A stretch of DNA of 39,067 nucleotides from IMG/VR virus record IMGVR_UViG_3300005096_000054, positions 1 through 39,067 of that record; one strand, given 5' to 3'. Under the pieces are notes generated by a model that ran no database searches, was not told where the DNA came from, and saw only the letters and a list, made by a program, of their open reading frames with translations. Both the position numbers and the translations under genes were made by a program. Position 1 is the first letter of the stretch; each line of letters starts with the position of its first letter. Origin of the DNA: a virus. Positions 8,936 through 38,039 of the stretch are shown here, in pieces.

Positions 8936-9038
8936 GAAAGCCAGAGTTATTCGAAAAGGCGGTTCGACTGTTGTCAAACCAAAATCCAAGCAAAAACCAA
9001 AGAAAGAGGTGAAGACAGATGTCCCTAATAAGGAATGA
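8913..9038 (+). CDS. Possible 41-residue lysine-rich small ORF
   Basis: A GTG-initiated frame overlaps the ends of both flanking genes and fills the 83-bp gap between them. The product is very basic (VKPKSKQKPKKEVKTD). GGAG lies about 10 nt before the GTG. It may be chance, since only a GTG is available and no homolog is known to me. Confidence 0.25.
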   Translation: MSQIPAHKKARVIRKGGSTVVKPKSKQKPKKEVKTDVPNKE

Positions 9039-9951
9039 GGTTGTTCTGGCTAGAATAGAGTCGGCTTACAATACCGACTCCGTTCCGGTAGCTGCAGATG
9101 CTGTTGCTGTAAAAACAGAATTATCATGGGCGCATGAGGGCCTGAGAATTATTGAGCGGGACCTAATTAAACAAGGTCTTGATAAGCCGAAAAGAATTCA
9201 TGCAGGCATGCTGAAAACAATAACTATTCCGGTTGAGCTAAAGGGCAGCGGTTCTGCTGGAACTGCCCCTGAGTTTGGGACGCTTCTTCGTGCCTGTGGG
9301 TATGGGGAAACCATTGTTGCGTCAACTTCAGTTACCTATTTGCCAGTATCTAGCGCAATCGAGTCTTGTTCAATTTACTATTTCGAAGACGGTGGTCCTA
9401 GGCATGTTCTAACCGGATGTCGCGGCACCGTTTCGTTCAATATTAGCGTGGATGATGTTCCTGGGGCAATATTCACTATAACTGGACATACATTCGACCC
9501 AACCGATACTAGCCCCCCAACTGCTGTTTATGATGCTACTGATCCAGTTGCAGCAGTTGGATCGACGTTCACTTTCGGCGGCTTGTCGAAAGTGATTACT
9601 GAGATTGGCATTGAAACGCAAAATGAAATGGCGTTTCCAGATCACTTGTCTGCCTCAGATGGTTACGGTGAAATTAGAATCAGCGGGCGTGATTTTGTTG
9701 GGTCCTTTAATCCTGAGTCAGTATTAGTTGCGACTGATTCTGTGATTGCCGACTTTGTTGCTGGCATACAAAAAGCAGTGGTTATCGGGCCCATAGGGTC
9801 TGCCAGCGGAAATATTGTGACATTTACGGCCCCTGCAGCTAGTTACATAGATTTAAGTCCAGCGGAAAGATCAGGAATTCGCGTCTATGATCAACAGTTT
9901 GAACTAAATATTTCATCTGGTGATGACGAAATATCGTTGGCCTTCACATGA
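9019..9951 (+). CDS. Tail tube (major tail) protein
   Basis: A 310-residue beta-rich protein. It opens with a VLARIESAYNTDSVP segment and continues with the strand-rich body typical of siphophage tail tube proteins (GSGSAGTAPEFGTLLRACGY is the usual motif in this family). A clear Shine-Dalgarno (AAGAGG) precedes the ATG. It polymerises around the tape measure; the following chaperone genes and tape measure confirm the context. Confidence 0.87.
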   Translation: MSLIRNEVVLARIESAYNTDSVPVAADAVAVKTELSWAHEGLRIIERDLIKQGLDKPKRIHAGMLKTITIPVELKGSGSAGTAPEFGTLLRACGYGETIVASTSVTYLPVSSAIESCSIYYFEDGGPRHVLTGCRGTVSFNISVDDVPGAIFTITGHTFDPTDTSPPTAVYDATDPVAAVGSTFTFGGLSKVITEIGIETQNEMAFPDHLSASDGYGEIRISGRDFVGSFNPESVLVATDSVIADFVAGIQKAVVIGPIGSASGNIVTFTAPAASYIDLSPAERSGIRVYDQQFELNISSGDDEISLAFT

Positions 9952-10253
9952 TGAAACTGGCAGGGCTTGAGCCGCAGTGGGAAGAATTTGATGGCGTCAA
10001 ATTCAAGCTAAAGCCTCTTACAGCACCAGAGCGTCTTGAATGTCTTGAATACAGCAATATCGACAAGTATTCGCTGATGTTCAAAACGGCCTGCGAGTTC
10101 GGCGTTATTGACTGGGATGGAGTCGAAGACGAAAAGGGTCCGGTTGCTTTTTCGAAAGACTTGCTTGGCCGATTGCCTGAAAGCACTTGGATGGCGATTG
10201 CTCGAAAAGTTTTGCGTCTAAACGATCTCGGAGCCGAAGACCAAAAAAACTGA
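9948..10253 (+). CDS. Tail assembly chaperone, short form (gpG-like)
   Basis: A 101-residue protein whose ATG overlaps the tail tube stop (ATGA). It lies between tail tube and tape measure, the fixed place of lambda G/T-type chaperones. It ends in Gln-Lys-Asn just after an A AAA AAC slippery heptamer at 10244-10250. Most ribosomes should stop here; a minority should shift to the -1 frame and make the long form. The sequence itself carries no domain I can name beyond position. Confidence 0.85.
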   Translation: MMKLAGLEPQWEEFDGVKFKLKPLTAPERLECLEYSNIDKYSLMFKTACEFGVIDWDGVEDEKGPVAFSKDLLGRLPESTWMAIARKVLRLNDLGAEDQKN

Positions 10254-10540
10254 TTATGGCTGTCGAATTGCCCAAGCATCCGGCAGCCTGGCAATGTGAA
10301 ACCTGTGATTGTGTTGACGGCATCGCGCCAGAGAAGCGATGGCAGACGAAGGGCCATATCGATCCAACCGATATCTGTTATCGGCAGGCAGTCACAAATC
10401 GTTCTATTTTCCTTGTGTCACTTTTTGGGTTCTATCAGGACGGGCATTTGTATCGTGATGGTGGCGTGTCGAATCAGCCTGCAGTGTATACGCAGGCAAT
10501 GACTTTTCTCAGGTGGTATTTAAGTGTCAGTAAAGACTAA
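9948..10540 (+). CDS. Tail assembly chaperone, long frameshifted form (gpGT-like)
   Basis: This is the -1 frameshift product. It reads 9948-10250 in frame 0, slips on A AAA AAC, and continues from CTG at 10250 to the stop at 10538-10540, giving about 197 residues. The second part (from 10256, MAVELPKHPAAWQCETC) includes CxxC and other Cys residues. An internal ATG at 10256 could also allow separate translation of the second part (94 residues). The extension ends 17 bp inside the tape measure gene. Confidence 0.83.
10244..10288 (+). promoter_or_regulatory. Programmed -1 ribosomal frameshift signal
   Basis: The heptamer A AAA AAC (10244-10250) is in the correct reading phase. The frame-0 stop TGA follows at once (10251-10253). 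After a 7-nt spacer a stem forms: GGCTGTCG at 10258-10265 pairs with CGGCAGCC at 10281-10288 (8 bp, one G-U) around a 15-nt loop. The -1 frame is open for 97 codons downstream. Confidence 0.88.
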
Positions 10541-12380
10541 ATTACTACTTACTGCGGTTGACAAGACGAAACGGGCGTTTCAGAGCGCCGAGAAAAACGT
10601 CTCTGGTTTAACAAAATCAGTCAATAGTGCACAGCGTGCCTTTAGTGCACTAGTGGCGGGCGCGGTAGTCAAAAACATCGCAGAAGCCGGGCTTGCGATG
10701 GACCGGTTCAGACGAGCATTCAGGGTTGGAACGGGTAGCGTTGAGGCCGCCAATCGTGAAATGCAGTTCGTTATCGATACATCGCTTAAACTCGGCACAA
10801 ATCTTGAGGCATCGGCAGCAGCATATTCAAAACTAACCGCTGCATCACAAGGGACAGCGCTTCAGGGAAAGGAAACTCAAAAGATATTTGAGGCCGTCAG
10901 CAAAGCTTCCGTTGTTTTGGGGCTAACTGCCGATCAGGCCAATAATGCATTGGTCGCTTTTGAGCAGATCATATCGAAAGGAAAGGTATCTGCAGAAGAA
11001 TTAAGACGTCAGTTATCTAACGTGCTGCCGGGTTCTTTTAGCATCGCGGCACGATCAATCGGCAAAACAACTGCCGAGCTTGATGCAATGCTAAAGGCCG
11101 GCGAACTTACGGCTGAGGACTTATTGCCGAAGCTTGCACGCGAGCTGATCAGAACTTTTGACCCCGCTGTTGAGGATGCGGCCAACAGCGCACAAGCGTC
11201 ATTCGCACGCTTTCAGACATCTGTCTTTCTCCTTAAATCCGAAATCGCTGAAGGTGGATTATTGCCTGCGCTTGCGACACTTGCCGATCATATTCGTGTA
11301 TTGATTCCCGGTGGTGACATGGGTTTCGGAATGATAGCCAGCGATATTGAACGTGAAATTAAAGTTCTTGAAAAGCAGGCCCAAATAATTCGTGGCATTA
11401 TCAAACAGCTGCAGGGCACCTCTGTGGAGGACAATGCGGGTCGCTCGTTGTTCGGCGTGGTAATAAAAGGCACAGAGGATTTCCAGGCAGAGCTTGATGG
11501 TCTAATAGTTAAAATTGACAAGTTAAACCAGAAGCAACAGGACGTTATGACCAACGCGCCGACGCTGGATGCAATAAACATAACTGGTGCACTTGGGGAG
11601 ATCGGCAAGATAAGGGCCGAATACGACAAGTTTCTGGATGGTCTTGACAGCAATGCTAAGAGATCATTCGACACGCTGATAAAGCGATTCGAAACCGCCG
11701 AACAAAAAGCCGACAAGATGCGGCGAACGTTAGTCCGGTTCAAAGACGAAATGGACCCGGCAGAATTCAAGCGCATATCTGACGCAATCAAACGAACACT
11801 GACTGACGGCATTGACGAGATCGATATTGATTTCGACAAAATGCGCCGGGACTGGAAAGAGCAGCTTAAGGACATGCGTCAAAATGGCGAGAACGAATTC
11901 GATGCAATAGCTGCAGCAGCAGAGCAGGCCGCCAGAAACATACAAGACGCTTTCGCAGACTTCCTGTTCGACCCATTCGACAAGGGCATTAAGGGTATGC
12001 TGAAGTCGTTTCTTGACGCAATCCGGCGCATGCTTGCGAATCAGGCTGCCACCCAGCTGTTTGGTTTTCTGAAAAGGACGATCCCATTTCCGAAGCCCGG
12101 CGGTGGCGTTCCCGTACCGCGCGCAGATGGCGGACCTGTTTCTGCCGGTAATTCGTTTCTTGTCGGTGAGCGCGGTCCCGAGCTATTCATCCCACGAAAA
12201 TCAGGCATGATTATCCCTAACAACAAAATGGGCGGTAACACCGTAGTCGTAAATCAAAGTTACACGATCAATGGTGCAGATCCAGAACGGTCTGCTGAGT
12301 TACTCGCGCCCGTTTTCCAGCAAAACAAGCTTGACACTATAGCGATGATTCAAGACATGCGCGCAAGAAGGCAGTTCTAG
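10524..12380 (+). CDS. Tape measure protein
   Basis: A 618-residue protein. Residues about 55-215 match the tape-measure N-terminal domain (SKGKVSAEELRRQLSNVLPG is diagnostic), followed by long helical, charged coiled-coil segments. The C-terminus has the usual ending (ADGGPVSAGNSFLVGERGPE). It sets tail length; at roughly 0.15 nm per residue, about 90 nm is expected. It starts inside the frameshifted chaperone gene. Confidence 0.93.
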   Translation: MSVKTKLLLTAVDKTKRAFQSAEKNVSGLTKSVNSAQRAFSALVAGAVVKNIAEAGLAMDRFRRAFRVGTGSVEAANREMQFVIDTSLKLGTNLEASAAAYSKLTAASQGTALQGKETQKIFEAVSKASVVLGLTADQANNALVAFEQIISKGKVSAEELRRQLSNVLPGSFSIAARSIGKTTAELDAMLKAGELTAEDLLPKLARELIRTFDPAVEDAANSAQASFARFQTSVFLLKSEIAEGGLLPALATLADHIRVLIPGGDMGFGMIASDIEREIKVLEKQAQIIRGIIKQLQGTSVEDNAGRSLFGVVIKGTEDFQAELDGLIVKIDKLNQKQQDVMTNAPTLDAINITGALGEIGKIRAEYDKFLDGLDSNAKRSFDTLIKRFETAEQKADKMRRTLVRFKDEMDPAEFKRISDAIKRTLTDGIDEIDIDFDKMRRDWKEQLKDMRQNGENEFDAIAAAAEQAARNIQDAFADFLFDPFDKGIKGMLKSFLDAIRRMLANQAATQLFGFLKRTIPFPKPGGGVPVPRADGGPVSAGNSFLVGERGPELFIPRKSGMIIPNNKMGGNTVVVNQSYTINGADPERSAELLAPVFQQNKLDTIAMIQDMRARRQF

Positions 12381-18783: not shown

Positions 18784-19307
18784 AAAACTTCAAACTTAAA
18801 ACCGGGGCTATCTTGGTTGTCACGGCGTTGCTTATTTTCGTCTGGTGGGGATCTGCTGATGCCGGCGAGCTCTACATCGATGTTGGCCCGACACAGGTTG
18901 GTTCGACATTCTCCGGTGCCGGCATGCTCCAACTGAATAACCGTATTTCAAAGCACTTCGATATCGGGTTCGGCTACATCGGTGAGCAGGAATATGACGG
19001 GTTTAGGATTCGTGAACAGCTTTATGCTGGTGCTGAGTTCGTTGTCACTGATCCGTGGAAGCAGAGGGCCCGGATTGGATTCGGACCGTACTTCTTTCAG
19101 AGCGCGGACAGAATAGGTACGTCAAAATTCAGGGCCGGAATCAGCTTCGAGTATCGATTCACAGACAGAATAGGATTCAAGGCGCGCCATTTCTCTACTG
19201 CCGGCAGCGCGCCTGAGATTACCGTTTGTCGGATTAACGGCGTGTGTGAAACGAATGACTGGAATAGTGGAAATGATAGCTGGGCTAGGATTGTCTGGTA
19301 TTTCTGA
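18780..19307 (+). CDS. Outer-membrane beta-barrel, PagL-like lipid A deacylase candidate
   Basis: A 175-residue protein. The likely start is TTG at 18780, overlapping the previous TGA, with AGGGG upstream; a longer ATG frame from 18732 would put a charged leader before the signal peptide. Residues 8-28 are a signal peptide ending ADA-G. Alternating strands follow (FDIGFGYIGEQEYDG, RARIGFGPYFF), ending in an aromatic residue (WYF) as barrel proteins do. RHFSTAG places His137 and Ser139 as H-x-S, as in PagL. The third catalytic residue (Glu) is not at the usual spacing. It could remodel LPS or merely be a barrel. Confidence 0.55.
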   Translation: MKNFKLKTGAILVVTALLIFVWWGSADAGELYIDVGPTQVGSTFSGAGMLQLNNRISKHFDIGFGYIGEQEYDGFRIREQLYAGAEFVVTDPWKQRARIGFGPYFFQSADRIGTSKFRAGISFEYRFTDRIGFKARHFSTAGSAPEITVCRINGVCETNDWNSGNDSWARIVWYF

Positions 19308-19848
19308 ATTCGACAGGCGTTGTAATAGCCCTTTCTGCAGGCCATTTATAGCGAGCGATTCGCTTGTATAGTGCCGCATAATTGGCAACGCACCTCGGAT
19401 CACGCGCCCAGGCAGCAATACATTTTGTTTCTCCGAAAACCGTAATCAGCGTACCGCCTGTATCTTTGTTTCTAGCCTGTGTTGTTGCGTCTGCCCATCG
19501 GCAATTGCCGGGCTTATAGTCACCATCATTGTCAATACGGTCAATAGACATGCCTGCTGGCCTCTCTCCCATATCGGCAAGGAAGTTTTTGAATTTCAGC
19601 CAGGGACCGTGAAGCTTAATTCCTCTCCCGCCGTAGTGCTTGAACCTGATATGTCCTTCATATAGGCACCGTTGTTTCATCCCCTGCCATGTCATATAAG
19701 TAGGCGAAAGCGGCGCGTCACCGTGTCCACGGAGGAATTTCATAGGCCCGCCCGCTACTACGCCACGCTTCTTCACTGCGTGCCTTGCAATGAACGTATA
19801 TTGCCCACAACCGCACTCGCAGAGTTTGTCAGATTGGATTCTGCCCAC
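19285..19848 (-). CDS. HNH/AP2-type endonuclease
   Basis: About 187 residues if GTG at 19848 is the start, 1 nt after the upstream stop; ATGs at 19893 and 19941 would extend it. CECGCG near the N-terminus is a zinc-type cluster. TYMTWQGMKQRC, HYGGRGIKLHGPW and IDRIDNDGDYKPGNCRW are the hallmarks of a widespread phage HNH family. It is the last gene of the leftward operon and its 3' end overlaps that of the convergent barrel gene by 23 bp. It may be a homing nuclease. Confidence 0.85.
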   Translation of the reverse strand: MGRIQSDKLCECGCGQYTFIARHAVKKRGVVAGGPMKFLRGHGDAPLSPTYMTWQGMKQRCLYEGHIRFKHYGGRGIKLHGPWLKFKNFLADMGERPAGMSIDRIDNDGDYKPGNCRWADATTQARNKDTGGTLITVFGETKCIAAWARDPRCVANYAALYKRIARYKWPAERAITTPVEFRNTRQS

Positions 19849-19849
19849 C

Positions 19850-20065
19850 TCAACAAGCCCGCCGCTCAACAGTTCCAGGCGGAACCAAAACATAACAATT
19901 TCTATTAATGGCGATGCTTCCATCGTCCTGTGATGCAACAATTGCGCCAGCTACTACAACTACGCCAACTGCAATTATCGTGTTGCGCTTTTGCTCGTAC
20001 GTCATATTCGCGCATCCAGCCATAAGCATAATCGTCAAAAGTACTATTGTATTTTTCATTATCAT
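19850..20065 (-). CDS. Small lipoprotein
   Basis: A 71-residue protein with signal peptide and lipobox (LLTIMLMAGC), then a second hydrophobic helix (NTIIAVGVVVVAGAIVA). It starts with an ATGA overlap. An envelope protein expressed early could serve superinfection exclusion; this is inference only. Confidence 0.7.
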   Translation of the reverse strand: MIMKNTIVLLTIMLMAGCANMTYEQKRNTIIAVGVVVVAGAIVASQDDGSIAINRNCYVLVPPGTVERRAC

Positions 20066-23640: not shown

Positions 23641-23843
23641 AGTACTCTCCAAGACAAAAGGTATTGACGCTGGCGAATTGATAGTTCGTTACTCTTAACT
23701 GGTGCCGACCAGCCCGGATCAAGGCCCAAAATGCGACGAACCTGAGCGCGCGGGACGCCGGTATATCGCTCGATAGCACACTGGCTCAAGCCTTGATTGT
23801 GTAGCTCTCGCACTTGGTTGAAATTGTCGGCAGGGAGGCTCAT
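23637..23843 (-). CDS. Helix-turn-helix protein, 68 aa
   Basis: Residues 8-37 form a resolvase-like HTH (VRELHNQGLSQCAIERYTGV, then RAQVRRIL). It follows the exonuclease gene with an ATGA overlap. A DNA-binding regulator is likely; the target is unknown. Confidence 0.7.
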   Translation of the reverse strand: MSLPADNFNQVRELHNQGLSQCAIERYTGVPRAQVRRILGLDPGWSAPVKSNELSIRQRQYLLSWRVL

Positions 23844-24448
23844 GCAGCTTTCCTGTTTAGGAGTTTATCCCGCGTTTCGCTCAGGTCTTTGGCGAACTGA
23901 GTCAGCGCCTTGCCGACCAGATCCGTGTAATCGTCCGGCTCTACCGATACCACCAGCGGATCAAAGTCAGGGTGATACGAAATGAACCGCCACGGCAGGC
24001 CAGTAATGAACATGGAGCCGTGAACCTGTGGCTTGTAGAAATCAGGCAGCGTTCCGTTTAGCAGGTAGCCAACGTGGGTCGATGCCTTGGGACACTTTAT
24101 CTCGACGCCGTAGGTTTCAGTGAGTGAGTCGGGGCTACAGCCTAATGTCGCCTCGTCGTTTGTCACAAAGCCAACTTGGTCGAGATCGCAATTGTGGTGC
24201 ATCTCATACCAATCCCTAGCTTCCTCTTCCAGCTCAATTCCACGAAGCATCCATTTCGTCGGCTCGAAACCTTCCTCTTCCTCTTTTGAGACGGGTTCGG
24301 CGATAAGTTCATGCATGTATTGGCGAGACTGAGCCGACAGCTTGGCTGTCTTTGGCGTGATGATTTTGTCGCACTTCGACATCGTGGGAACGCCTCGCCT
24401 GATCTGCCACCAGAGCTCTGAATACTGATCCATTTTGTGGACAATCAT
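23840..24448 (-). CDS. YqaJ-type recombination exonuclease
   Basis: A 202-residue PD-(D/E)XK nuclease of the YqaJ/lambda-exo type. The catalytic set is visible: Glu72 region (GIELEEEARDWYE), Asp107 in GCSPDSL, and Glu116-x-Lys118 in GVEIKCP, followed by a YKPQVHG strand. It makes 3' overhangs that the ERF protein next to it anneals. A start at 24433 is also possible. Confidence 0.93.
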   Translation of the reverse strand: MIVHKMDQYSELWWQIRRGVPTMSKCDKIITPKTAKLSAQSRQYMHELIAEPVSKEEEEGFEPTKWMLRGIELEEEARDWYEMHHNCDLDQVGFVTNDEATLGCSPDSLTETYGVEIKCPKASTHVGYLLNGTLPDFYKPQVHGSMFITGLPWRFISYHPDFDPLVVSVEPDDYTDLVGKALTQFAKDLSETRDKLLNRKAA

Positions 24449-25155
24449 CGCGAAGCCTCCAGCTTAGTAATGCAGCGCCCGTGGTTCTCAAGCGGTATTT
24501 CGTCAATGGCCGGAACTCTGGCCCACTTCAGGAATCGACCCAGATCAACGCCTACCTCTTCTCGTAGGGCGTCAAGGTCGGCTGCTTGATCTTCAGTGAT
24601 AACCTCTGCTAACACGCCTGAGTTTCCATCATCGTCAGGCGTATCCTGAGCGATAACTCCGGTAACAGCCTGAAGCGTAGATCCCTGTAAATAGGTAATT
24701 GTGGATTTGATCTGCTGTAGCTGGTTCTTGCTGCCAGAAGTATCGGGCGGGCCGGACATTGATACATTCTCGCTGTGCCCAAGCGTATGAGTCAGATAGC
24801 AAGTTGCAGTGATTAGTTCGCCCTGCTCTATCTTCCATGTGGCATTCAGGCCAAAAGGTGCAAGTGCCGCGGCAAGCGTGTTAGCGATATTACCGATGCT
24901 GGCGTATCGAGAGCCATATTGAGAGTTCGTCTTGTCTTTAGTGATGACAACTCCCTGCTTGTTGAATTCAGCCATCGCCTCGAAATAAGCCTCTCTGGCC
25001 TTGTCGTCTTTCCAGCGACGTTCGAGCTCCATTAGCTTCTCGATCTTTTCCAGGTCGTGACCCTGCTCAACCGCAGAGGCCAGCATGTGCATTGGTGTTA
25101 TAACAGCTACCTCCTGAATAACCGCCGTGTCTTTTTCCGCATTTGCCTTGTTCAT
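24445..25155 (-). CDS. erf: ERF-family single-strand annealing protein
   Basis: A 236-residue protein. The ERF core is clear: FNKQGVVITKDKTNSQYGSR, then YASIGNIANTLAAALAPFGL, and SGSKNQLQQIKSTITYLQG. It binds single strands and anneals homologous DNA, together with the exonuclease encoded downstream with an ATGA overlap. The acidic C-terminal region is variable in the family. Confidence 0.93.
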   Translation of the reverse strand: MNKANAEKDTAVIQEVAVITPMHMLASAVEQGHDLEKIEKLMELERRWKDDKAREAYFEAMAEFNKQGVVITKDKTNSQYGSRYASIGNIANTLAAALAPFGLNATWKIEQGELITATCYLTHTLGHSENVSMSGPPDTSGSKNQLQQIKSTITYLQGSTLQAVTGVIAQDTPDDDGNSGVLAEVITEDQAADLDALREEVGVDLGRFLKWARVPAIDEIPLENHGRCITKLEASR

Positions 25156-27570: not shown

Positions 27571-27804
27571 GTGAGTGGAACAACTAAAGCTACAAGCTGG
27601 ATTTCGCGAGAAACTGAATTGCCGCCGCCGCATGAAGATTTTATTGCTTTGAATCGCTGCGGCAGAATCTTTCGTTCTTGTATGTGTTATGGAATGCATG
27701 AACCGTGGTTTACATATCCGAGAGGGGATAAAGACGCATCTGATACAGCGCCATCATGGATTGATGTGACTCACTGGATTCCAATGCCGGAACAGACCCA
27801 ATGA
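27571..27804 (+). CDS. DUF551-like protein, 77 aa
   Basis: The pattern WISRETELPPPHEDFIALN, then WIDVTHWIPMPE, is typical of the DUF551 family common in phages. The start is GTG behind GGAGAGAGAT. The biochemical role is unknown. Confidence 0.75.
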   Translation: MSGTTKATSWISRETELPPPHEDFIALNRCGRIFRSCMCYGMHEPWFTYPRGDKDASDTAPSWIDVTHWIPMPEQTQ

Positions 27805-28199
27805 CAAACAATGACTACATACGCAGGGCCGTGGATACTTGCTTTGAGTGGAAGGGCGGAAAGTCCAGCGGTTACGGAAGAAAGCACTTTAATGGTCGCA
27901 CGGATTACACGCACAGAATCGCTTGGGAGTGGGCTAATGGCCCTATACCTGATGGAGCATGTGTTCTGCATAAATGCGACAACCGTGCTTGTTGCAATCC
28001 TGAGCATCTATTTCTTGGTAGCAAGGGTGATAACGCTAGAGACATGTGCGAAAAGGGTCGTCACGCAAGCCAAGTTAAAACGCATTGCGCTCATGGTCAT
28101 GAATTTACGCCAGATAATACGTGGCTAGACAAAAATGATTGGCGGCGCTGCCGAACGTGCAGGAGATATCAACAGAGGGTTAGAAATGGACTCGAATGA
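27801..28199 (+). CDS. HNH endonuclease (HNH_3 type)
   Basis: A 132-residue protein. The core is VLHKCDNRACCNPEHLFLG with His57, Asn61 and His69, preceded by HRIAWEWANGPIP. A second Cys/His cluster (THCAHGHEF ... CRTC) follows. It may be a homing nuclease in the early operon. It overlaps its neighbours at both ends. Confidence 0.88.
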   Translation: MTNNDYIRRAVDTCFEWKGGKSSGYGRKHFNGRTDYTHRIAWEWANGPIPDGACVLHKCDNRACCNPEHLFLGSKGDNARDMCEKGRHASQVKTHCAHGHEFTPDNTWLDKNDWRRCRTCRRYQQRVRNGLE

Positions 28200-35961: not shown

Positions 35962-36207
35962 ATGCCTTCTGTTGATCAACATCTAGAGAAGTATCTGCTT
36001 GCCAGATATTACAGATGGAAGCAGCCAAAGCGCGATACGGGAGGGGCGTTGTTCTTGTATCCGCCAATAAAGATGACGGGTACTGGATATCACGTACTGA
36101 ATCTTAATCGTGTTGAGAGCCTGCATCCAGACTACGTGATGGGCCTGATAATTGACAGTGATGGCAACCCTCGGTTTCTCGGTAAAAACATGGGACAGAG
36201 CGCATGA
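35962..36207 (+). CDS. Hypothetical protein, 81 aa
   Basis: A small mixed protein (YYRWKQPKRDTGGALFLYPP, then YVMGLIIDSDGNPRFLGKN). It overlaps the fiber gene start (ATGA). Unknown function. Confidence 0.6.
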   Translation: MPSVDQHLEKYLLARYYRWKQPKRDTGGALFLYPPIKMTGTGYHVLNLNRVESLHPDYVMGLIIDSDGNPRFLGKNMGQSA

Positions 36208-38039
36208 AGGGCTTTGCTCGACACATGATAGGAATATGGCTTCTCACTTTATCTGCTATCGCTACATCCGCGTCGGTAACACTTACGTGGGACGAGCCAA
36301 CAGAAAACGAGAACGGAACGCCATTAACCGATCTTGCCAGTTATGAGATTCACAGCGGATGTACAATACCGGGCGCTTATGATCGAGTTGATACGCTATC
36401 AGCGCCGGCAACCGCTTATATAGTTGAGAACATCTTTGGCGATACCTGCTATTTTGCGGCAATTGCTGTTAATTCAGGTGGCGTTAAGAGCTTATTTTCC
36501 AACGAAGCAATAAAGATTCTGGCAGACCTCCCAGATCCGCCAAGTAGTTTATCAATCACATGGACAGAATCAGAGGGCAATGAATTGGCATTTGGTTATA
36601 CGGGCGGGGCTTTTAATACCGGCAATAGTGCCTCTGCTTCTGTCACGCATGGACTAACGATAAACAGCGGCGATCTCGTTGTCGCTTATATTAACTCGAA
36701 TTCAACAACAGCAGTTTCTGCGGATGCCGGCGGAACGACTTTCACAGATGCCGCAAACGAAGTTCCTACAAGTGAAACGGCCAGACAGGCATTATTCTGG
36801 AAGATAGCCGGAGCGAGCGAGCCTGCTAGTTATTCATTCACAGTCGGGAGCGCTAATTGGCAGGTTTTTGTCAAGGTATTCACCTCAGCTAATGACGCAG
36901 TTGTAGATGCTGCGGCTAGAACGCAAAGAGAAGCTACCAGCGCAACCACCATTGTTGCCGGAGCGATTGACACCCAAGTCATTAGCGATAATGCGGTCAG
37001 TGTTATTTTTGGCGGCAAGGACAATCGACGAGGATCAACAGAGCTTTACACGGTTGCAGATAATAGCTACGTGGGGATTCTGGGCGACGCCGCTGTGCAA
37101 ATGGCTGCTGGTGCACATCGAATCTACACGACCGGAGAGACCTTCAGTGGTACCGTTACGATAGAAACAGCAGACGCTAATGATAGTAGAAACGACAGAA
37201 CCTATAGCATTCATATGTCGTTTGTTGAGGGCGGTGGAGGCGGTACGACGTACAACGAGTCGTTTTCTTCTCCGTTAGATTTGACATACGCCGCTGCTTC
37301 TATAGCGAATAGACAGGGACCAATGTCCGGCCAAATGGATCTGGCAACAACGTTGTCTGCAGCATTGATCTCGCCTCAATCGGTTTCAGAGGACGTTGAT
37401 TTTTCTGAAGTAAGTGCTGGAAGTGCACTAATCAATGATTCGATGTCCGAGCAAATAGATTTCGCCGATACAGAGACAGGACTAATCGGGCAGATATCCA
37501 GCATTTCAGGCCAGATTGATTTAGCGACATCAATGGTGTCAGTAATTGATGCCGCTTTGGCAATAGAGGCAGCGGTTGAGTTTGGCGAATTGTGGGCCTT
37601 TATGGCCACCGCAATTGCTGAGACAGCATCGGCTGTTGATTTTGATGAGTCGCTGGATGGAGGTAATTCTGCCATTCAGGCGACAATTATCGCCGATATC
37701 GCGCTTTCTGAGGCTTTTGCGACGGAGCTAATCTTCAGATCAGACTTTTCTGGCGTGCTTGATGTAAGCGAAGCAACAGACACTGTTTTGCAAGCAATCG
37801 GCAATGTGACAGATGTGCTTGATCTGTCAGATATTCAAACAGCACTAATTGATGCTGGCATGTCCTTTTCTGACGCAATCGACTTGTCGGAAGTATGGTC
37901 GTCGCTTTCTGGTGAGATTGCAGCGGCAGTTCATATTATTGTCGCTGCCAGAGATCGCCGGTTTGTTGCAGGGCCAAGAGAAAGGCTTATGGTCGTAAAA
38001 TCTCGACCAAGACGCACAATCGTTAAAAAACTTCATTGA
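36204..38039 (+). CDS. Fiber-like repeat protein with signal peptide
   Basis: A 611-residue protein. Residues 1-23 are signal-peptide-like (MIGIWLLTLSAIATSAS). Residues 24-110 form an Fn3-like domain and about 115-340 a beta-sandwich domain (GDLVVAYINSNSTTAVSADA). A Gly-rich hinge follows (EGGGGGTTYNE). Residues 354-573 are eleven 20-residue repeats. The last 35 residues are basic with a roughly 10-residue pattern (AARDRRF, GPRERLM, SRPRRT). It lies before the structural genes near the fiber-tail adaptor. It could be a virion fiber or a secreted surface protein. Confidence 0.75.
   Translation: MKGFARHMIGIWLLTLSAIATSASVTLTWDEPTENENGTPLTDLASYEIHSGCTIPGAYDRVDTLSAPATAYIVENIFGDTCYFAAIAVNSGGVKSLFSNEAIKILADLPDPPSSLSITWTESEGNELAFGYTGGAFNTGNSASASVTHGLTINSGDLVVAYINSNSTTAVSADAGGTTFTDAANEVPTSETARQALFWKIAGASEPASYSFTVGSANWQVFVKVFTSANDAVVDAAARTQREATSATTIVAGAIDTQVISDNAVSVIFGGKDNRRGSTELYTVADNSYVGILGDAAVQMAAGAHRIYTTGETFSGTVTIETADANDSRNDRTYSIHMSFVEGGGGGTTYNESFSSPLDLTYAAASIANRQGPMSGQMDLATTLSAALISPQSVSEDVDFSEVSAGSALINDSMSEQIDFADTETGLIGQISSISGQIDLATSMVSVIDAALAIEAAVEFGELWAFMATAIAETASAVDFDESLDGGNSAIQATIIADIALSEAFATELIFRSDFSGVLDVSEATDTVLQAIGNVTDVLDLSDIQTALIDAGMSFSDAIDLSEVWSSLSGEIAAAVHIIVAARDRRFVAGPRERLMVVKSRPRRTIVKKLH
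37263..37922 (+). repeat. Eleven tandem 60-bp units coding 20-residue repeats
   Basis: Units share the core hydrophobic-Asp-hydrophobic, as in MSGQMDLATT, VSEDVDFSEV, MSEQIDFADT, ISGQIDLATS, FSGVLDVSEA, VTDVLDLSDI and FSDAIDLSEV. The first core Asp is residue 359 and the last is 560, an average spacing of 20.1. The DNA is diverged, so the repeat is old. Confidence 0.8.

Follow-up and report, generated by a model that had tools for sequence, protein, structure and literature searches.

A predicted programmed -1 ribosomal frameshift in a phage tail assembly chaperone gene, with a slippery heptamer conserved across a family of related junctions

A programmed -1 ribosomal frameshift is very probably encoded in the tail assembly chaperone gene of an uncultured tailed phage, virus record IMGVR_UViG_3300005096_000054, whose full length of 39,067 bases is hereafter called the window. 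The original prediction, made from the sequence of the window, that a pair of tail assembly chaperone genes carries a -1 signal is supported by the phase of the heptamer, the 3' stem present in the family, and the predicted fold of the upstream product, G. The majority of ribosomes would terminate at the TGA at position 10251 and release G, a protein of 101 aa, and a minority would step back by one base on A_AAA_AAC and read on to position 10540, yielding a 197-aa G-T fusion. The stem-loop, separated from the heptamer by 7 nt, probably aids the slip, to which the GGAG on the 5' side may also contribute. By analogy with phage lambda, G would coat the tape measure protein, and tail tube subunits would be recruited by the T part of the fusion. 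The occurrence and rate of slippage, like the roles of the two products, are our reading of the sequence, heptamer phase, conservation, family-wide folding, and predicted fold of G that are described below.

Gene order and organization of the predicted frameshift site

Profile matches of the neighboring genes to Pfam and PHROG define the gene order tube, G, T, tape measure (Table 1), so that the candidate pair lies between the tail tube and tape measure genes, the position of G/GT-type pairs. The 3' end of the ORF at 9948-10253 reads GAC CAA AAA AAC TGA and thus contains an in-phase heptamer of the X_XXY_YYZ type close to the end of G, within a -1 frame that is open from 10181 and ends with TAA at 10538-10540. 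A single slip joins the 101 residues of G to 96 residues of T, for a computed fusion of 197 aa.

Table 1. Features of the predicted frameshift region and its flanking genes (window coordinates)
Feature	Position	Strand	Basis or remark
Major tail (tube) protein gene	9019..9951	+	Pfam Phage_tube_2, E 3.8e-10; PHROG 290 tail protein, E 8.8e-15
Gene G, encoding a predicted tail assembly chaperone of 101 aa in the zero frame	9948..10253	+	Predicted fold and structural matches
SD-like GGAG, possible 5' stimulator	10230..10233	+	Sequence, suggestive; 10 nt 5' of heptamer
Slippery heptamer A_AAA_AAC, in phase, last two sense codons AAA AAC	10244..10250	+	Sequence; homolog junctions
T domain, -1 frame, 96 residues plus stop, predicted to be joined to G by the shift	10250..10540	+	Homologs
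Zero-frame stop TGA, abutting the heptamer	10251..10253	+	-1 frame reads part of CTG ATT
Conceivable independent start codon of T (ATG)	10256..10258	+	2 nt past the TGA of G; no SD upstream; lacking in most relatives
3' stem-loop, arms 10258-10265 and 10281-10288	10258..10288	+	MFE; family-wide excess folding
Tape measure protein gene	10524..12380	+	Pfam TMP_3, E 1.1e-29; overlaps the end of T

The original prediction placed A AAA AAC in phase and directly before the frame-0 TGA, which is correct to the base (10244-10250, with TGA at 10251-10253), and the coordinates it gave for the open -1 frame, up to 10540, and the resulting 197-residue product length also hold. It was right, too, about the 7-nt spacer and the stem of 8 bp (10258-10265 with 10281-10288), one pair of which (10263/10283) is G-U. 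The loop consists of 15 nt, and the stem is both the MFE and the centroid structure, at -16.4 kcal/mol.

Elsewhere in the window, genes for a YqaJ-type exonuclease and an ERF-type single-strand annealing protein lie side by side (complement 23840-25155), forming a phage recombination pair. By eye, three ORFs (27801-28199, 990-1751, and complement 19285-19941) resemble HNH-type homing endonucleases, one of them located 5' of the terminase gene. A Pfam scan of two of the three (990-1751 and 19285-19941) gave no match at E 0.001. An ORF of 611 aa (36204-38039) seems, again by eye, to contain imperfect internal repeats and has no Pfam match.

Predicted fold of G

In a model built from 18 sequences (mean pLDDT 85.7), G has the predicted fold of the HK97 tail chaperone. 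The best Foldseek match in the PDB was the HK97 tail assembly chaperone 2OB9 (probability 0.90, E 0.2). A second aligner (VIA) gave Z scores of 7.7 to 3FGX, an uncharacterized Bacillus protein, and 6.5 to both 2OB9 and YqbN (3KLU), although Z values near 6.5-7.7 can reflect common arrangements. Among the predicted viral structures in BFVD, the best matches of G include named tail assembly chaperones, with the CcrColossus pre-tape measure chaperone among them. The sequence profile of G produced weak matches to chaperones (PHROG 313, E 0.036). The chaperone fold indicated by the predicted model, the gene order, and the frameshift signal agree.

Conservation of the heptamer and the adjacent stop

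Three scans of viral contigs, together with loci collected earlier, provided 163 usable junctions that fall into 61 clusters at 70% T identity; a search of plasmids found no relatives, and a tape measure search of viral contigs gave no matches. The heptamer is A_AAA_AAC in 35 clusters, G_GGA_AAC in 21, A_AAA_AAA in four, and A_AAA_AAG in one. The AAA and GGG triplets are exchanged as a block, with the ability to re-pair kept, in the manner that tandem re-pairing demands. All junctions first found with a T homolog carry A_AAA_AAC in the identical phase, and the heptamer and its phase are kept among homologs in general. The proposed alignment of homologs thus bears out the heptamer, whose phase is kept in every close relative, with A_AAA_AAC or G_GGA_AAC at the junction in 56 of the 61 clusters.

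The same two heptamers occupy the equivalent junction in phages related through the tube protein, namely, Synechococcus S-CBS1, S-CBS3, and S-LBS1, as well as Rhodobacter RC1 and RcWaterboi, Thiobacimonas P1, Rhodovulum P1, Rhizobium TM16 and L338C, and Agrobacterium JP1; the RcDurkin junction contains A_AAA_AAG. The G homolog of Alteromonas phage P24 ends with AGA AAA AAC TAA, and its -1 frame, which reads LIIAVEV..., lacks a start codon. One member of the set, L181, is doubtful, with its candidate site 93 nt off.

The zero-frame stop follows the heptamer at once in 46 of the 61 clusters, one codon later in 10, two codons later in two, and farther on in three. JP1 and L165, with the zero-frame stop 27 and 126 nt on, respectively, keep A_AAA_AAC, so that the core of the site is the heptamer rather than the stop. 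Loci with A_AAA_AAC and a stop 27 or 126 nt downstream (L018, 4127-4163, and L165, 1495-1630, respectively) are natural tests of adjacency. A weak-stop signal in the identity of the stop codon was considered and dropped, TGA accounting for 72% of these stops compared to 70% in other frames of the same loci.

RNA structure downstream and upstream of the heptamer

Across the family, the 55 nt downstream of the heptamer fold more stably than shuffled sequences, with a mean z of -2.25, compared to about -0.2 for controls at offsets of 100-200 nt (range of means, 0.05 to -0.46; difference, p 8.5e-15). Under a synonymous-codon control, the mean z was -1.69 (p 3e-10). In the T clade that includes the window, a 12-bp stem pairs the codons of A-V-E-V with those of F-N/D-C (alignment columns 15-26/44-55). 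Standard pairs occupy 85.2% of the cells of this stem, compared to 29.5-42.8% in slid registers, and 15 cells show double changes. In shuffles that ignore relatedness, the paired percentage was reached in 1 of 500, and the count of pairs with a double change in 130 of 500, which is not unusual. Because part of this signal comes from shared codon constraint, we grade the stem as supported rather than proven by covariation; as a family property, conservation of a 3' stem is supported.

The window itself pairs columns 15-22 with 38-45, having lost the 3' partner used in the register of its relatives; the alternative 3' partner is nearer, and the distance of the stem from the heptamer is unchanged. 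A stable stem 5-9 nt past the heptamer is thus present, strong in the family and unexceptional in the window, and the register of the relatives was not found there. Hence, the proposed check of whether homologs share the stem gives a positive answer for the excess of folding across the family and a negative one for the register of the window, where the strength of the stem is also unremarkable. The average stem of the window, outside the register of its relatives, and P24 (L001), where no significant stem was detected in the synonymous-codon test (z 0.09), speak against the preferred explanation.

Upstream of the heptamer, anti-SD pairing in the family peaks in 9-nt windows ending 3-6 nt 5' of it, with means at the peak of -4.1 and -4.9, compared to about -1 in most other places. 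Much of this peak follows from Glu and Lys codons; the synonymous control gave p 0.002 overall and 0.2 outside the clade of the window. The GGAG or a similar SD-like element is therefore a suggestive lead only, read from sequence, as a possible 5' stimulator.

The T domain and its expression

Searches of Pfam and PHROG with T of the window and 25 relatives gave no match, and phage records contain a single match, in a part of Alteromonas phage P24 that carries no annotation (38% identity, E 2e-8). Alignments of T across the whole clade were too divergent for a pattern search, and narrower alignments were used. Four invariant cysteines and a GG..QP..Y motif are shared by 25 sequences, and the sequence conservation clearly points to selection on T. 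The structural model of T, of modest confidence (pLDDT 77), had no useful match in the PDB. Among the T domains of S-CBS/RC1-type phages (junctions L019-L025), six of seven match Pfam DUF1799 (PF08809), a profile to which neither T of the window nor its four-Cys relatives scored above the cutoff. DUF1799 apparently represents the T part that tail chaperones of Synechococcus and Rhodobacter-type phages gain only by frameshifting.

The -1 frame lacks an ATG or GTG for T within 30 nt of the junction in 45 of the 61 clusters, and P24, L003, and others have no ATG, GTG, or TTG for T near the junction. T is conserved and yet often has no start of its own; therefore, the -1 product is needed, and fusion is the simplest route to its expression. 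A nearby ATG initially seemed unique to the window, a distinction that failed in the larger set, where L149, L157, and L179 have one as well. The P24 record does not annotate the four-Cys T family (10250-10540 in the window; 2995-3300 in L001), an omission that the frequent lack of a start codon in the -1 frame probably explains. Gene catalogs seem to miss a conserved tail domain that was found here by reading through the shift.

Alternative explanations

Taken alone, the evidence from the window is only moderate and describes a plausible, if unproven, site. A_AAA_AAC occurs eight times in the window, counting both strands; about 2.2% of its 50-nt stretches fold equally well or better, an 8-bp stem at a comparable distance is found at 3.4% of positions, and the stem has a z of -1.6 against the dinucleotide control and -1.35 against the synonymous control. 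With the heptamer this frequent and comparable stems at 2-3% of positions, G and T could be ordinary neighboring genes and the signal a coincidence. We exclude chance, a scarcely conceivable explanation here, because the phase and position of the heptamer are conserved across the 61 clusters. Furthermore, the representative loci contain 545 open frames with 80 codons or more, of which 46 end in a stop-abutting A- or G-type heptamer with AAC, the same count as at the G/T junctions; of 366 other frames, only 4 have AAC as the final codon. The seven consecutive A residues at 10243-10249 could also induce RNA polymerase to slip, creating a mixed mRNA pool from which the fusion would be made by normal translation. 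A-runs can slip in transcription, as described for runs of 9 (PMC5009743), but GGGAAAC, which lacks such a run, occupies the same place in 21 of the 61 clusters, and the conserved 3' RNA folding points to the ribosome, so that this route is highly improbable. Translation of T as a separate protein, through reinitiation at the ATG at 10256 once ribosomes have terminated at the TGA of G, with the heptamer incidental, is very unlikely as well. That ATG lies only 2 nt past the TGA, and a few relatives (L149, L157, and L179) have a nearby ATG, too. However, anti-SD pairing at the ATG is -1.0 kcal/mol, compared to -7.1 for the tube gene and -7.2 for the tape measure gene (G itself reaches only -1.5), the T frame of the 45 clusters mentioned above offers no ATG or GTG for reinitiation, the conserved peptide L-I-x-A-V-E starts upstream of the ATG, and the in-phase heptamer would be left unexplained.

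The adjacent stop raises another possibility, namely, that these genes form a distinct G-T class in which the stop belongs to the signal itself: slippage would involve the E-site and P-site tRNAs while the A site holds the stop, and the speed of the release factor would set the G:G-T ratio. This reading builds on the last sense codon, AAC, which slips poorly in E. coli, the stop directly behind it, the conserved 3' stem, and perhaps the upstream SD-like element; we consider it rather unlikely. In E. coli, which may not be the host here, A_AAA_AAC is a weaker site than A_AAA_AAG (PMC5009743, PMC4066793), a point against the preferred explanation. Work on the HIV-1 site, with a stop introduced at this position, indicated that some of the shifts can follow reading of the stop, that such a stop lowers the shift, and that the release factor competes with it, in bacteria too (PMC4373837). 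The adjacent stop may therefore act as a brake and hold G-T at a low level, or it may simply result from compact overlapping with the conserved Leu codon, CTG or CTA.

Comparison with known frameshift systems

Frameshifting by -1 in the tail chaperone gene is a textbook phenomenon of tailed phages. The G/GT pair of lambda (NC_001416) is similarly located between the tail tube and tape measure genes and is expressed through a -1 shift near the end of G that yields a fusion; in lambda, the T part binds the tail tube protein and G binds the tape measure protein (PMC5009743). The contrast with lambda drawn in the original prediction holds, given that the lambda site is GGGAAAG, with the zero-frame stop 15 nt downstream and a weak 3' fold (NC_001416). 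Lambda T was not recovered as a homolog in the sequence searches of this analysis. Some G-T frameshifts have been described as working without stimulators (PMC5009743), and in annotated SEA-PHAGES sites, the distance from the slip site to the stop averages 26 nt (PMC10885494).

Closer parallels come from predictions in other phages. In Burkholderia phage KL1 (gp18/gp19; PMC3483164), a predicted -1 site abuts the TGA of the chaperone gene, followed by a predicted 3' stem-loop, and would give a fusion, but the heptamer is GGGAAAC instead of AAAAAAC and an additional tail gene precedes the tape measure gene. Acinetobacter phage vB_AbaS_Loki (gp12/gp13; PMC5313236) has AAAAAAC adjoining the stop, likewise as a prediction, with one more gene before the tape measure gene; the available part of that report does not discuss a stem. 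The two heptamers of the present family are those of the Caulobacter phages, AAAAAAC in the phiCbK group and GGGAAAC in Colossus (PMC3556154), although these phages have large genomes; the CcrColossus chaperone is also among the structural matches of G. A_AAA_AAC has also been published for the haloarchaeal virus HCTV-2. Outside phage tails, E. coli dnaX (PMC3711429) combines an A-type heptamer with an upstream SD-like element (suggestive here) and a downstream stem-loop; unlike the present case, its heptamer is A_AAA_AAG, the gene is unrelated, and the shift ends translation early instead of extending the product.

The claim that the window site is a clean variant does not amount to novelty, the stop-abutting arrangement, with or without a stem, having already been published (PMC3483164, PMC5313236; for the heptamers, also PMC3556154). 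Compared to these systems, modest novelty lies only in the statistics for the whole family and in the role that the adjacent stop may play. The 61 clusters, which mostly share an AAC-ending heptamer, an abutting stop, and excess 3' folding, form a large, coherent comparative set that makes this role testable.
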